From Planctomycetota bacterium (GTDB lineage Bacteria > Planctomycetota > UBA11346): a stretch of DNA of 55,478 nt. A program made the translations under genes and the position numbers. Under the pieces are notes generated by a model. That model saw nothing but the letters and a program-made list of their open reading frames with translations. It was not told where the DNA came from and ran no database searches. The stretch lies in contig JAQIBG010000385.1 in NCBI GenBank assembly GCA_027859175.1, forward strand, positions 1 through 55,478. The letters are read 5' to 3'. Position 1 is the stretch's first letter; every line of letters starts with the position of its first letter. Shown piece by piece: positions 10,463 through 16,005 of this stretch.

Positions 10463-11218
10463 TCACCGAGTCCGCTCAAACACCACAAACAGGCGTTCCG
10501 GATCATCGTCTTCCAATTGGATTGCGCTCACGGTCACGAAGCGCAGACCGATCTTCGGCGCAATGTCGGCCGCGCGATCGTGCTCTTCCTGGCTATAGTT
10601 GGGGCCCTTGTAGATCACGATCTGGCCCTTGGGCGCCAACATGTCGACGATCTCGGGCAGCAACTTATCGACGGCACCGGCTGCACGTGACACCACCAGC
10701 TGACATTGCTGAAACAGTTCCGGCGCGGCGCTGCCTACCTCGCGGCCACGGAAATGCTTGGCCGTCACATTGGGGCCCACCAAAGACCCGGCAGCCGCCA
10801 AGAAATCGACCTTGCGCCGTCGGCTGTCAACCAGCGTCCACGGCACCTGTGGCTTCCACAGCGCCAACGGCAGCCCGGGGTAACCGCCACCAGCACCCAG
10901 ATCAACGCAGGGCACGCCATCGACCAGGCTCTGACACCGCGAATCAGGCCACAGGCTCAGGCTGTCGAGCAGATGCAGCTTCAGATACTCGCGCGGGGCG
11001 GTGATGCGGGTCAGGTTGAACCAGGCGTTCACGCCGCAGAGATGCCCGTACAGGCGCTCAATCACGGGGCGATGGCTATCCGCCTCATCAACCCCAAACA
11101 CCGCAGCACGCTGCTTGAACCACGCCCAATCGGCATCATCGAAGGGGATCGCCGGATAGACGGCTGGGTCGAGGTTACCGGCGTTAGGGATGTCGGCTTT
11201 GCTGCGTTGCTCGTTCAC
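10463..11218 (-). CDS. rsmG: 16S rRNA (guanine-527-N7) methyltransferase RsmG
   Basis: The 251-residue product is RsmG (GidB), which methylates N7 of G527 in 16S rRNA. Support comes from CGVNAWFNLTRIT near the start, HLLDSLSL, and the SAM-binding VDLGAGGGYPGLPLAL, followed by VDSRRRKVDFLAAAG. The tail, with QIVIYKGPNYSQEE and a final LFVVFERT, also matches. The frame is open 47 codons further upstream, but that region is proline- and arginine-rich and not family-like. The GTG at 11218 gives a normal length; there is no strong ribosome-binding site to settle it. It is divergent from dnaX, with 183 bases between the two chosen starts. Confidence 0.9.
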   Translation of the reverse strand: MNEQRSKADIPNAGNLDPAVYPAIPFDDADWAWFKQRAAVFGVDEADSHRPVIERLYGHLCGVNAWFNLTRITAPREYLKLHLLDSLSLWPDSRCQSLVDGVPCVDLGAGGGYPGLPLALWKPQVPWTLVDSRRRKVDFLAAAGSLVGPNVTAKHFRGREVGSAAPELFQQCQLVVSRAAGAVDKLLPEIVDMLAPKGQIVIYKGPNYSQEEHDRAADIAPKIGLRFVTVSAIQLEDDDPERLFVVFERTR

Positions 11219-11234
11219 GCGCGCAGCCTGTCTG

Positions 11235-11255
11235 CACTTGTGCGGCCCACAAGTG
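11235..11255. promoter_or_regulatory. Inverted repeat in the rsmG-dnaX intergenic region
   Basis: CACTTGTG and CACAAGTG form a perfect 8-bp inverted repeat around a five-base loop. It lies 16 bases upstream of the chosen rsmG start and about 145 bases upstream of dnaX. It could be an operator or a leader hairpin; nothing else indicates which. Confidence 0.35.
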
Positions 11256-11401
11256 AGCACCTGTGGGTGGCTGGTAGGGGTCCTGGGTCCTGGTACGCGC
11301 CTGGCGGCGCTTGGATCCTGGGGACAGCCAAGGCACAACTGGGCGGGGTACCGCCCCACGCCCCTCCTTGCAGGTCAGCGCCGGGGGCCACCATAGCCGC
11401 C

Positions 11402-12580
11402 GTGGATTACCTCGTCATCGCCCGCAAGTACCGCCCCCAAACCTTTGCTGAGGTCGCGGGGCAGGATGTCATCTCCCGCACCCTGACCAACGCGATTGGC
11501 AAGGGGCGGATCGCCCATGGCTTCTTGTTCACCGGCCCGTCTGGCGTCGGCAAAACCACGATGGCCCGTATCCTGGCCAAGGCCCTGTCGTGCGAGACCG
11601 GCATTACGTCCGAGCCCTGCGGCGTGTGCGACCACTGCAAGATGATCGCCGACAGCACCCATCCCGACGTGTTCGAGATCGACGCAGCCACCCACAACGG
11701 CGTCGACGACGTGCGCGAGCTGGCCGAACGCGCCACCTACTCGCCAACCATGGGCCGCTACCGGATCTATATTCTCGACGAAGTGCACATGCTGTCGCAG
11801 GCGGCCTGGAACGCGCTGCTCAAGTTGCTCGAAGAGCCGCCGCCACACGTGTATTTCATCTTCGCCACTACCGAGATCGAAAAAGTCCCGGCTACGGTGG
11901 TGAACCGCTGCCAGCGCTTCGATTTCCGCTCGATCGACCGCGAAGACATCGTCGACCGCCTGCGCGACATCTCACGCGCCGAAGGCATCAATCTTGAAGA
12001 CCCCCTGCTGATGCGCATCGCGCGCGCTGCCGCCGGTGGCATGCGTGAAGCGCAGACCATGCTCGATCAGCTGATCGCGATGTGCGACAAGGAGGTCACT
12101 GAAAACGACCTCAATCTGCTGTTGGGTGCTGCACGCAGTGATGACCTGCGCGGCCTGGTTGACGACCTCCTCAAGGGCAACGCAGCCGGGGCCATTGAAG
12201 CCCTCGACCGTCTGTGTGCCGACGGCGTGGCACCCGCCACCTTCCTCGAGCAGTTGGTCGAATACGTGCGCATGCTGTTGCTGATCACCACCTGCGGGCC
12301 TGAATCGGCCCCGGTGCAACGCCTCGGCAGCGCTGACGACACCGCCCGCGCTCAGGCCGAGGGCGCCGGCGCCGACAAGCTGCTGCGGATGGGGCAGATT
12401 CTGGTGGGCAGCCAGCAATCGATGCGCCACGGCGTTGACGCCCGCCTGCAGCTCGAGCTGGCTTTTGTGCGCATTGGCCAGTTGGGCGAGGTACTCGATG
12501 TGGACGGTCTGCTGCGGCGGATCGAACGCATGGAGAAGAGCTTTGCCAGCCACGGAGGCCTTGCCGCAAGCCCCAGATGA
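11402..12580 (+). CDS. dnaX: DNA polymerase III subunit gamma/tau, core part (DnaX domains I-III)
   Basis: The 392-residue protein is the clamp-loader ATPase. It begins in the family-typical way (YLVIARKYRPQTFAEVAGQ), has Walker A GPSGVGKT at 45-52, zinc-ligand cysteines C64, C73, C76 and C79, the Walker B region YILDEVHMLS, and the sensor FATTEIEKVPATVVNRCQ. The collar domain III follows and ends at IERMEKS. There the frame closes at TGA 12578-12580, so the product resembles a bacterial gamma form. The next gene starts inside this stop (ATGA) and encodes what is normally the tau C-terminal region. The GTG at 11402 was chosen because homology starts there; the open frame extends far upstream antisense to rsmG and is not meaningful. 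Confidence 0.93.
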   Translation: MDYLVIARKYRPQTFAEVAGQDVISRTLTNAIGKGRIAHGFLFTGPSGVGKTTMARILAKALSCETGITSEPCGVCDHCKMIADSTHPDVFEIDAATHNGVDDVRELAERATYSPTMGRYRIYILDEVHMLSQAAWNALLKLLEEPPPHVYFIFATTEIEKVPATVVNRCQRFDFRSIDREDIVDRLRDISRAEGINLEDPLLMRIARAAAGGMREAQTMLDQLIAMCDKEVTENDLNLLLGAARSDDLRGLVDDLLKGNAAGAIEALDRLCADGVAPATFLEQLVEYVRMLLLITTCGPESAPVQRLGSADDTARAQAEGAGADKLLRMGQILVGSQQSMRHGVDARLQLELAFVRIGQLGEVLDVDGLLRRIERMEKSFASHGGLAASPR

Positions 12581-13161
12581 GGCCGGGCGCGGACGCCCGT
12601 CCGTTCCCGGCCCAGCCCCCCAATCAAGATCAGTCGCCCGGTGAGGGCCGCAGCAGCGGCGCCCGCAGTGGCCGTGCCGTGCCCGAATCTGGGCTGGCCG
12701 AACTCCAGTCCGACTGGGACCGCATCTGCCAGCACGCCCTCGATAGCGGCCCGCAATGGGCTGGCGCGATCACCGGCGTGCGCCCAGCGGCGCTCAGCGG
12801 CGACAAGCTGCGCCTGTTGGTGATCGACGACGCGATGGATCCAAGCCAGCTCGGCCCCGACACGCCCGGCCTAGCACTACTGCAACGCCTGGTCAGCAAT
12901 CGCATCGGCCGCCCACTGCAGGTCGAGGCCCTGCACGGCCGTGGCTCAGCCGCCAGCGGCAATGCCGACACGCGCAATCGCGCCTATACCGAAGCCCAGA
13001 ACCACCCCTTGGTACAAGACATCCTCAAACGCTTTGAAGGCGAAGTGGTGGCACGCGAGCCACGCCCCAGGGCCGATTTCCTAGCTGAGCGCGCAGCAGC
13101 CGAAGGCGCCAGCGACGTAGCCAGCGACGTAGCCAGCGATACGCCCGACGACACGGCCTGA
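12577..13161 (+). CDS. Separate DnaX C-terminal (tau-like) domain protein
   Basis: This 194-residue protein starts with a Pro/Gly/Arg-rich linker (residues 1-37). It continues with a domain resembling the C-terminal region of single-chain DnaX proteins: LAELQSDWDRICQHALDS, a DKLRLLVIDD strand, and the closing NHPLVQDILKRFEGEVV. It overlaps dnaX by four bases (ATGA) and lies in the -1 frame relative to it. The -1 frame is open from 12439. The simplest reading is a split dnaX with translational coupling; a programmed -1 shift, possibly on C-CCC at 12571-12574 just before the stop, is an alternative. The tail is acidic and carries a short tandem repeat. Confidence 0.75.
   Translation: MRPGADARPFPAQPPNQDQSPGEGRSSGARSGRAVPESGLAELQSDWDRICQHALDSGPQWAGAITGVRPAALSGDKLRLLVIDDAMDPSQLGPDTPGLALLQRLVSNRIGRPLQVEALHGRGSAASGNADTRNRAYTEAQNHPLVQDILKRFEGEVVAREPRPRADFLAERAAAEGASDVASDVASDTPDDTA
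13108..13140 (+). repeat. 12-bp tandem repeat within the tau-like gene
   Basis: The unit GCCAGCGACGTA occurs twice and is followed by a partial third copy ending in T. It encodes a repeated Ala-Ser-Asp-Val in the acidic tail. Its length is a multiple of three, so gain or loss of a unit would keep the frame. Confidence 0.7.
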
Positions 13162-13269
13162 AGTGGCTTCGTAGCCAGTTAGTCGCAGCACAATCCGGGC
13201 CTCGTACTGGCTCGCCCAGCCCTCGTTTGCCCCTGTGCTAACCACGCTCATGTGCTAGCCTGCACGGCT

Positions 13270-16005
13270 ATGAGCGGCACCCCACGCGTACCGGCCAACG
13301 ATCGCATCGCGCGATTGGAAACCGAGATGCTGCCGCCGCATCGCGCTAGCGCGCTGCCCAAAGCCTATCGCATCGGCCCCTATGAAATCGATGGTATCAT
13401 CGGCAAGGGCGGCATGGGCGTGGTGTACCGCGCCAAGGTGGTGGAGAGCTGCCCGGTACCGCTCGATCAGGTGGTGGCGCTCAAGATGCTGTCTGAGCAA
13501 AACCTCGACGAGCTCGACCGCCGCCGTTTCGAGCGCGAAGCCGCCTACCTGCAGGCGCTGCGCCATCCGGGTATCGTTCGCATTCTGGACCTAGGCGAAC
13601 ACGAAGGCCGGCCGTTTCTGGTCATGCAGTTGGTTGAAGGCAAAACCCTCGACGAAGTCTTGCAGCACCGCATGCGTCAAGAACGGCTCATGCATTTGGC
13701 CGCCGAAGAGTCGGCCGATATCTTAGTGCAAGGCCTTGAAGCCCTCCACGTGGCGCACATCGCTGGTATCCTGCATCGCGACCTCAAGCCCGGCAATCTG
13801 ATGATCACGCCGCAGGGCGGGATCAAGATTCTCGACTTCGGCATGGCGCGGCGCATTAGCGCCGAGCACAGCCGCCTCACTGCCTCGGGCTCGGTGCTAG
13901 GCACCCCCGCCTACATGCCGCCCGAACAGGCCGCTGGAGCCCGCGATCTGCTCGGCCCGCGCACCGATATCTATTCAATGGGCGCGGTGTGCTATGAACT
14001 CACCACCGGGTGCCAGCCGTTCACCGCTGACACCTCGCTGGCAGTGCTGCGCCGCATTCTCGATGAAGACCTGACCCCGCCGAGCGTGCACAATCCCACC
14101 ATCCCGCGCGACCTGGAAACCATCATCCTCAAGGCCATGGCCAAGGATACGCGCGACCGCTATCCCTCAGCCGAAGAAATGGCCCAAGACCTCCGTCAAT
14201 TCCGCGCTGGCCGCCGCATTCGCGCCCGTCGCCTCGGCACCATGAAACCGCTGATGCGCAAGCTGTGGGCCAACCGCAGCTTAGTCACGGCGGTATCGCT
14301 GGGCTTGTTCATCACGGCCGTGCTGGTGGCGCTGCTGGCGCGCCAGGTCAAACATCACATGGAAGGCCGCGAGGTCGAAATCCAAGAGCAAGTGCGCAGC
14401 GAACTCACTGAGATGTTGCAGCCGAAATGGCTGACTGCGTGGGAACACAACGGCTTGCTCGACTGGGTCAGCGTTAAACCGCACACACAAACCCATCCGC
14501 TGTTTCCCGAACTCCAGGTACTAACGCTACCGTCTGTGTCATCGAATGTGGCCTTGGGCCTCGACGTGGCGCCCCTGGATAACGCCCTGCTCGAACTCCT
14601 CATTGCCGACCGTTCAATTGGTGACGGCTACGCCTTGCGTTATGAACGCGCTGATGGCAGCGGTGAACTGCAACTTCTGCGCGGCAGCGCCGACGACACC
14701 GGCCGCCGCACCGAGATTGGCCACGTCTCGCTCGATTTGGTGCGTCCGTTCCGCTTGTCTTTGGTTCGCGAAGACGACCTCATCACCGCCCGCGTTGATG
14801 ACCGCGAGGTCATTCGCTTTCCCGACTTGGCACCGATTGAAGGGCTCGAGAACGACAAGGTCTCGCTTGCGATGCGCCCAGAATCGGTGCGCTTGGCCAA
14901 TATCGTCCTCGAACGTCAGCGGCCGCCTGAAAAGGTCAGCCGCCTCGTTGCCATCGACATGGTACGCCAGCAGGGCCGTTACGATCGAGCCATGACGATG
15001 TACCGTGAATTTCTGCGCGATTTCCCGGACAGCGAAGACAGCCGCAGCGCGCACTACCGGATTGGCCTGTGCCAAGAAAAACTCGGCCGCTACGACGATG
15101 CGCTCGATACCTTCGCCGAGCTCAGCCGGCAAAGCGAAGACAACCCACGCTACTTCATCAACTCTACCTTCCACGCCTGGTCCACCGCGTTGAAGCTCGC
15201 GCGCTACGACGAAGCCGACGGCTACTTCGACTCGATTCGACGCCGATTTGACCTGCGCCAGCTACTGGCCGCGGTTCCCTTTGACACCCTCGCCAGCCTA
15301 CCGATGGACTACATCAAACGGGCCCGCGAAGCCGAAGACCCCGAACGCGCCCACAGTCTCTACCTGACCGCGGTAGACATTGCGTCTTACCTTGAGAAAT
15401 GGTCGCTCATGCCGCTGGGCCTGCTTGGGGCCGGCGATGTGACTTTGGCAGAAGGCCGGGTTGCCGAGGCCATTGAGTACTACCGCCAAGTGGCAAACGA
15501 CGAGCGCTTCGCGACCAGCGATCAACACTTGGCGCAACTCAAAACCGGCGAAGCCGAACGCTTGCGATTCCGCTTCAGTGAATCGCAAGACGCCTACCAG
15601 TTGGTCATCGATGACAGCACCCGTGGCGAAGCCCAGTGGGCTCGCCTGTGGTTGGGTGATCTGCTCTTATATCTCGGTGACCGCGAAGCCGCGATCCGCG
15701 TGTGGCGGTCGTCAACCGAACCCGTCACGCGGCCCGGCAAGCTGATGGCGCACCTGGTTCAGGCCAGCGATCCGCTGCCGGTTGGCGACGATCCGTTTTT
15801 CGCCAACGATATCGAATATTTCAATGCCGTGCTGAGCCTGCTCGAAGGTAACGAACTGTCGTACCGGGAGCGCCTCGAAAACGTTATCGCGATGTCTGAG
15901 CCCCACGATTGGCCAGCCAGCTTGGCTCGCCAAATCGTGAGCGAACTCGAGCATTACCCGCCTTATCCGGCCCCTGACGGCGAACGCTTTCAAGACGGTC
16001 CGTAG
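13270..16005 (+). CDS. Transmembrane serine/threonine protein kinase with TPR-like tail
   Basis: The 911-residue protein has a complete Hanks-type kinase domain: glycine loop GKGGMG at 45-50, Lys72, HRDLKPGN at 169-176, DFG at 189-191 and PPEQ in place of APE. It ends near residue 312. A single membrane helix spans about 338-357. The C-terminal 550 residues should lie outside the cytoplasm: first a beta-rich segment (about 390-560), then TPR-like helices (for example YDRAMTMYREFLRDFPDSED and YDDALDTFAELSR). The architecture suggests a receptor kinase sensing an envelope or periplasmic cue; the ligand and substrates are unknown. The ATG at 13270 was preferred to an in-frame GTG at 13252. A stem-loop follows its stop. 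Confidence 0.92.
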   Translation: MSGTPRVPANDRIARLETEMLPPHRASALPKAYRIGPYEIDGIIGKGGMGVVYRAKVVESCPVPLDQVVALKMLSEQNLDELDRRRFEREAAYLQALRHPGIVRILDLGEHEGRPFLVMQLVEGKTLDEVLQHRMRQERLMHLAAEESADILVQGLEALHVAHIAGILHRDLKPGNLMITPQGGIKILDFGMARRISAEHSRLTASGSVLGTPAYMPPEQAAGARDLLGPRTDIYSMGAVCYELTTGCQPFTADTSLAVLRRILDEDLTPPSVHNPTIPRDLETIILKAMAKDTRDRYPSAEEMAQDLRQFRAGRRIRARRLGTMKPLMRKLWANRSLVTAVSLGLFITAVLVALLARQVKHHMEGREVEIQEQVRSELTEMLQPKWLTAWEHNGLLDWVSVKPHTQTHPLFPELQVLTLPSVSSNVALGLDVAPLDNALLELLIADRSIGDGYALRYERADGSGELQLLRGSADDTGRRTEIGHVSLDLVRPFRLSLVREDDLITARVDDREVIRFPDLAPIEGLENDKVSLAMRPESVRLANIVLERQRPPEKVSRLVAIDMVRQQGRYDRAMTMYREFLRDFPDSEDSRSAHYRIGLCQEKLGRYDDALDTFAELSRQSEDNPRYFINSTFHAWSTALKLARYDEADGYFDSIRRRFDLRQLLAAVPFDTLASLPMDYIKRAREAEDPERAHSLYLTAVDIASYLEKWSLMPLGLLGAGDVTLAEGRVAEAIEYYRQVANDERFATSDQHLAQLKTGEAERLRFRFSESQDAYQLVIDDSTRGEAQWARLWLGDLLLYLGDREAAIRVWRSSTEPVTRPGKLMAHLVQASDPLPVGDDPFFANDIEYFNAVLSLLEGNELSYRERLENVIAMSEPHDWPASLARQIVSELEHYPPYPAPDGERFQDGP

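Follow-up and report, generated by a model that had tools for sequence, protein, structure and literature searches.

A conserved C_CCN candidate slip site and a probable −1 frameshift to tau in the dnaX gene of a Planctomycetota lineage

How is tau made from a dnaX gene whose reading frame ends just past the collar domain, with the remainder lying in the −1 frame? The question is raised by a Planctomycetota bacterium whose genome is an incomplete draft of 5.6 Mb. The window, by which we mean the whole 55,478-nucleotide stretch of DNA that was analysed, carries a dnaX originally predicted to be split into a gamma-like gene and a separate tau-C gene overlapping by ATGA, with a low-level −1 shift as a possible extra. 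The features of the locus are as follows.

11402–12580, plus strand: dnaX 0-frame ORF encoding gamma (AAA+ ATPase, lid, collar); GTG start, 392 amino acids, TGA stop
12554–12558, plus strand: Shine-Dalgarno (SD)-like GGAGG, candidate upstream stimulator, 12 nt before the slip site
12571–12574, plus strand: putative slip site C_CCC; 0-frame Pro codon 12572–12574, with −1 re-pairing also on CCC
12574–13161, plus strand: tau extension in the −1 frame after the predicted shift; 195 amino acids comprising a linker, the tau C-terminal domain and an HPLVxxxxxRF motif
12577–12579, plus strand: ATG overlapping the stop (ATGA), which starts an ORF at 12577–13161; no counterpart in other species of the lineage
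12578–12580, plus strand: 0-frame TGA stop ending gamma, inside the 6-nt spacer between slip site and hairpin
12581–12612, plus strand: GC hairpin; 5′ arm GGCCGGG at 12581–12587, inner stem at 12589–12604, 3′ arm CCCGGCC at 12606–12612

The first ORF contains the AAA+ clamp-loader ATPase, the lid and the collar of DnaX, with profile matches above cut-off to PF13177, PF22608, PF12169 and TIGR02397. The collar (PF12169) spans residues 232–372 of gamma and the stop follows 20 residues further on. The tau-like remainder is encoded in the −1 frame, which stays open over 12439–13161, and the elements at the junction are ordered GGAGG-(12 nt)-C_CCC-AGA-TGA-GGCCGGG...CCCGGCC. On the minus strand, an ORF at 10463–11359 that reads like rsmG (16S rRNA methyltransferase) is divergent from dnaX, its listed start lying close upstream of the dnaX start. 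A large ORF 3′ of dnaX (13252–16005) resembles a Ser/Thr protein kinase whose C-terminal part is rich in repeats.

A family-level search returned 23 genomes, all drafts, and searches at order and class level returned the identical 23. Eighteen of them, in one family, order and class and covering 10 genera, have a readable dnaX junction; G018 was left out of the count as its gamma is truncated at a contig end. Four genomes have no gamma match, and in three of these a tau-C-like sequence starts no more than 20 nt from a contig end, where a contig break has cut dnaX. The three contigs (L235, L236 and L237, from G010, G009 and G017) start within 20 nt of tau-C, and assemblies perhaps break at the dnaX GC hairpin.

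All 18 readable relatives have a 0 frame that stops just past the collar domain, with the tau extension in −1. By this comparison, the −1 split is genuine and not a sequencing error. The layout originally predicted, with a first ORF ending after the collar and a second part in the −1 frame, is therefore borne out by the alignment to relatives that had been proposed as its check. What is kept is a cassette: an in-frame C_CCN preceded by an SD-like element at ~10 nt and followed by a 0-frame stop no more than one codon away (17 of 18) and a GC hairpin. The junction of L010 departs from this pattern: its gamma stop has moved to four codons past the slip codon, inside the hairpin, which is a weak one of 6 bp, yet its SD-like element is the strongest.

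The element common to every junction is the slip motif. An in-frame NNC CCN is found in 18 of 18 (CCT in nine, CCC in seven, CCG in two, CCA in none), while C_CCN occupies ~1.2% of codon positions elsewhere in the same ORFs. The slip codon is CCY in 16 of the 18 against the 37% expected from the share of CCY among Pro codons elsewhere (P 8e-6, computed with kinship ignored); L009 and L010 carry the poorer variant, CCG. In E. coli reporters, tetramers rank in the order A_AAG > U_UUY > C_CCY > A_AAA, whereas C_CCA and C_CCG are barely active (PMC4066793). The preference for CCY agrees with this rule, as C_CCY is the active C tetramer. Where the −1 frame opens just 22–31 nt before the gamma stop (L021, L006 and L012), a shift would be confined to that stretch, and in five species (L004, L010, L012, L017 and L018) C_CCN is the sole Z_ZZN motif in the ORF overlap. 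The junctions hence carry the conserved Z_ZZN in the overlap of a bacterial −1 programmed ribosomal frameshift signal. A full X_XXC_CCN heptamer is present in 4 of 18 (L006, L014, L015 and L021) and the window's own site has none. The C-CCC run pointed out originally holds up as a candidate shift site, though it is not immediately before the stop, since an AGA codon (12575–12577) intervenes; the remark that an A-rich heptamer is missing was correct, with no A run at the junction in this lineage.

Other slip elements fit less well. Neither the Arg codon nor the stop itself is invariant among the 18, and only C_CCN is. A +2 shift fails to re-pair in the CCT and CCC-TAA variants, whereas −1 re-pairing works for all by inspection. 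Only CGG and TGG tRNA-Pro were found among the 30 tRNA loci read in the window's draft. We make no claim for an odd tRNA-Pro set as an explanation, because the relative G004 has GGG, TGG and CGG. The latter genome also contains an array of 22 tRNA genes in ~4.2 kb (L208; G004:C10:155900-160500), many of which duplicate tRNAs located outside the array. The pattern CCCNMGNTAGGGYCG gave five matches outside dnaX in the 23 genomes, fewer than a reversed control pattern, and none of the five lies in a convincing two-ORF arrangement.

Two further elements, both missing from the original prediction, flank the slip site. On the downstream side is a hairpin whose 5′ arm (GGYCG or similar) starts at +7 from C_CCN in all 18 species, in L012 by inspection. 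Its mean stability is −27.8 kcal/mol, the mean folding energy of 40-nt windows has its minimum exactly at the junction, and in most species the hairpin window ranks among the most stable of the gene. Seven of 10 stem pairs show changes on both sides, giving 30 double-changed cells where shuffling yields 7.8 on average and 16 at most; as the arms were picked as paired, with small bulges omitted, the double changes alone count as evidence and the percentage paired does not. Both the +7 arm, which is within the 5–9 nt of a −1 frameshift signal, and the compensatory changes are those of a downstream structure.

Upstream, the 8-mer CGGAGGCC pairs with the anti-SD at −9.5 kcal/mol, ranking first of 74 in the gamma ORF. 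Across the 18 species, the mean anti-SD pairing dips to −4.0 kcal/mol at −10, a value reached by none of 290 control columns. L003, L006 and L010 have a strong element and several other members a weak one or none, so that the mean dip fits the optional SD-like stimulator of such signals though some species lack it. A CCTCC anti-SD is present in the 16S-like tails of several relatives and was not found in the window's own draft.

The −1 frame encodes a tau C-terminal domain. The window's tail alone matches tau C-terminal families weakly (PF12362, E 0.018), and among members DnaX_C (PF20964) is found in two and PF12362, weakly, in seven. A profile of the tau-extension family is homologous to the C-terminal regions of 29 fused DnaX of the phylum (hhalign 98.1%, E 6.6e-14), confirming that the second part is tau as had been proposed. 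Searched as a profile against the PDB, tau-C had no significant match. The AlphaFold2 model has a confident core at residues 40–120 and a low pTM (0.47); its best structural matches are to DnaA domain I (E 2e-3). Further down come DciA and, at rank 44, the E. coli tau C-terminal domain, neither with a significant E-value. The pN/pS of the extension is 0.43–0.93 and below 1 in all 11 pairs, indicating that it is under purifying selection. In L013–L016, L018 and L019 it is reduced to 60–99 amino acids, the middle domain being gone and the terminal HPLVxxxxxRFxADIVxREP kept. DnaX is also short (~460–480 amino acids), though unbroken, in L088, L102 and L111 of other planctomycete families, which suggests that the middle tau domain was lost there too.

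Taken from the sequences, dnaX in this lineage is very probably one gene read in two frames, with termination giving gamma and a programmed −1 shift at the Pro codon giving tau. Most ribosomes would end at the stop just past the collar, yielding the clamp-loader ATPase gamma. Some would move back one base with tRNA-Pro on C_CCN, CCN re-pairing with CCC, aided by SD-like pairing ~10 nt upstream and by the GC hairpin at +7 downstream. Reading on in the −1 frame, these ribosomes would produce tau, that is, gamma plus the linker and the tau C-terminal domain. The two frames and their conservation, the slip motif, the covariation in the hairpin, the SD-like dip, the homology to tau and the purifying selection are seen in the sequences; we infer the slippage itself, the tRNA and the step involved, its efficiency, and that both proteins would be made and used.

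Several points count against frameshifting. Cells usually require much tau from dnaX, in amounts comparable to gamma. In E. coli, C_CCN is weak, and a strong pseudoknot brings even the most active tetramers to no more than a few per cent (PMC4066793). The CCG codon of L009 and L010, the shifted stop and weak hairpin of L010, the lack of an SD-like element in several members and the draft state of all the genomes also weigh against it.

ATGA-type overlaps commonly permit reinitiation, and the window species has one. Ribosomes that end gamma at the TGA could accordingly restart at the overlapping ATG to make a free tau C-terminal protein. We consider such coupling very unlikely as the explanation for the lineage, since a start codon overlapping the stop is found in no other relative. 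Moreover, between −30 and +60 nt relative to the stop, 12 of 18 have no ATG, GTG or TTG, and in seven of 18 the entire tau frame is devoid of ATG. At 18 nt upstream of the ATG, the GGAGG is too distant to be a normal ribosome-binding site but is suitably placed for a frameshift stimulator. Nor would coupling preserve C_CCY, a spacer fixed at 6 nt and the pairing of the hairpin. The ATG at 12577 is thus probably incidental, although in the window species reinitiation could occur alongside frameshifting. With the overlap confined to that species and seven of 18 relatives having no ATG in the tau frame, a separate tau-C gene is not upheld, and the shift, rather than a low-level extra, is probably the main conserved route to tau.

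The tau frame could also be restored before translation, if RNA polymerase added or dropped bases at the C run and the edited mRNA were translated normally. The run is just 3–5 C and variable (C_CCG in two species), and known transcriptional slippage runs are longer. The direction is exclusively −1 in 18 of 18, and an SD-like element and a hairpin at fixed distance suit a ribosomal event, making slippage of the polymerase highly improbable despite its precedents in Thermus dnaX, at a run of nine identical bases (PMC5009743), and probably in poly-A two-ORF dnaX genes (PMC3711429). The tails of 60–99 amino acids in six members and a pN/pS near 0.9 in some pairs would fit a lineage that is losing tau, where gamma alone is enough and the −1 tail is a decaying remnant. 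This is extremely improbable, as all 18 keep an open frame that is always the same one, most keep the terminal HPLV...RFxADI..REP motif, pN/pS stays below 1 in every pair and the cassette itself is conserved. Finally, the GC-rich hairpin at the site and the three draft relatives with contigs starting inside tau-C are the setting in which a base-calling or assembly error might have split a single frame in the window genome. Seventeen other independently assembled genomes share this −1 split at the corresponding position, which brings the chance of such an error close to nil and refutes it for the lineage as a whole.

The proposed −1 shift to tau resembles that of E. coli dnaX in that a single gene gives two products by means of an SD-like element, a slip site and a hairpin a few nucleotides downstream. 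The roles are reversed, as the E. coli shift gives gamma, whereas here normal reading would give gamma and the shift tau. The sites differ as well: A_AAA_AAG, an A-rich heptamer, in E. coli and a C_CCN tetramer with one tRNA-Pro here. Two-ORF dnaX genes in which gamma ends in the 0 frame and tau is made in −1 by recoding were described in 2013, mostly as poly-A genes, in the GeneTack dnaX cluster (for example, in Chlorobium); 12 of the 17 sites in that cluster are runs of 7–10 A that probably act by transcriptional slippage (PMC3711429). No run of 7–10 A is present at the junctions described here, which instead have the hairpin and the SD-like element. The single-codon slip motif, with C_CCY among its active forms, is shared with the Z_ZZN tetramers of the IS1 and IS3 families and of E. 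coli reporters, but the IS1/IS3 tetramers are mainly A_AAG, U_UUY and A_AAA (PMC4066793).

Recoding of dnaX was reviewed in 2016 (PMC5009743). In the literature searched, which lay outside subscription journals, C_CCN was not described as a shift site of dnaX or as the conserved site of a cellular gene, and nothing specific to frameshifting in planctomycete dnaX turned up. A C_CCN site conserved across a whole lineage therefore looks new for dnaX, within the well-known frameshifting of this gene. dnaX is a textbook recoding gene whose slip sites described so far are A-rich, and lineage-wide C_CCN in a chromosomal housekeeping gene would widen the set used in searches, as surveys built on poly-A/T heptamers would miss such sites. 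Annotation pipelines, too, are prone to call these genes truncated and to overlook the tau tail. The 18 natural variants of site, spacer and hairpin offer material for studying useful −1 shifting by one tRNA.

Elsewhere in the phylum, dnaX is unbroken in most other planctomycete families. In family f3 (L114–L143, the family of G024), 29 of the 30 loci read have a two-frame dnaX with tau in −1. As in the window's lineage, gamma is in the 0 frame with a nearby stop, and a hairpin and an SD-like dip are found at the same distances. f3 differs in having canonical in-frame heptamers in place of C_CCN, A_AAA_AAA in 25 loci and G_GGA_AAA in four; in 27 of these loci the heptamer is no more than four codons from the stop, which is usually TGA and usually one codon after the site. 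It also falls in another part of the DnaX tree. In this tree, a quick search with weak deep branches, the window's lineage and f3 form distinct clades (support 100 each), the latter nested within a mostly fused group of 40 rows (support 97). This placement favours independent origins of tau-by-frameshift in the two lineages over one old origin of two-frame dnaX with many losses. Two planctomycete lineages seem to arrive at one and the same pair of products from different slip sites, which bears on the need for short and long DnaX in a set ratio.

We regard as evenly balanced the wider proposition that the whole lineage relies on single-tRNA-Pro −1 slippage at C_CCY, a weak site in E. coli, for an essential replication subunit, that either its ribosomes or its tRNA-Pro slip far better there than those of E. 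coli, or little tau is needed, and that the phylum acquired tau-by-frameshift on two or more occasions, using different slip sites. Within f3, one member (L133) has dnaX fused, again or still. At L095 (G026), a run of ten A precedes the gamma stop and tau is in the −1 frame, which is the poly-A type described in 2013.
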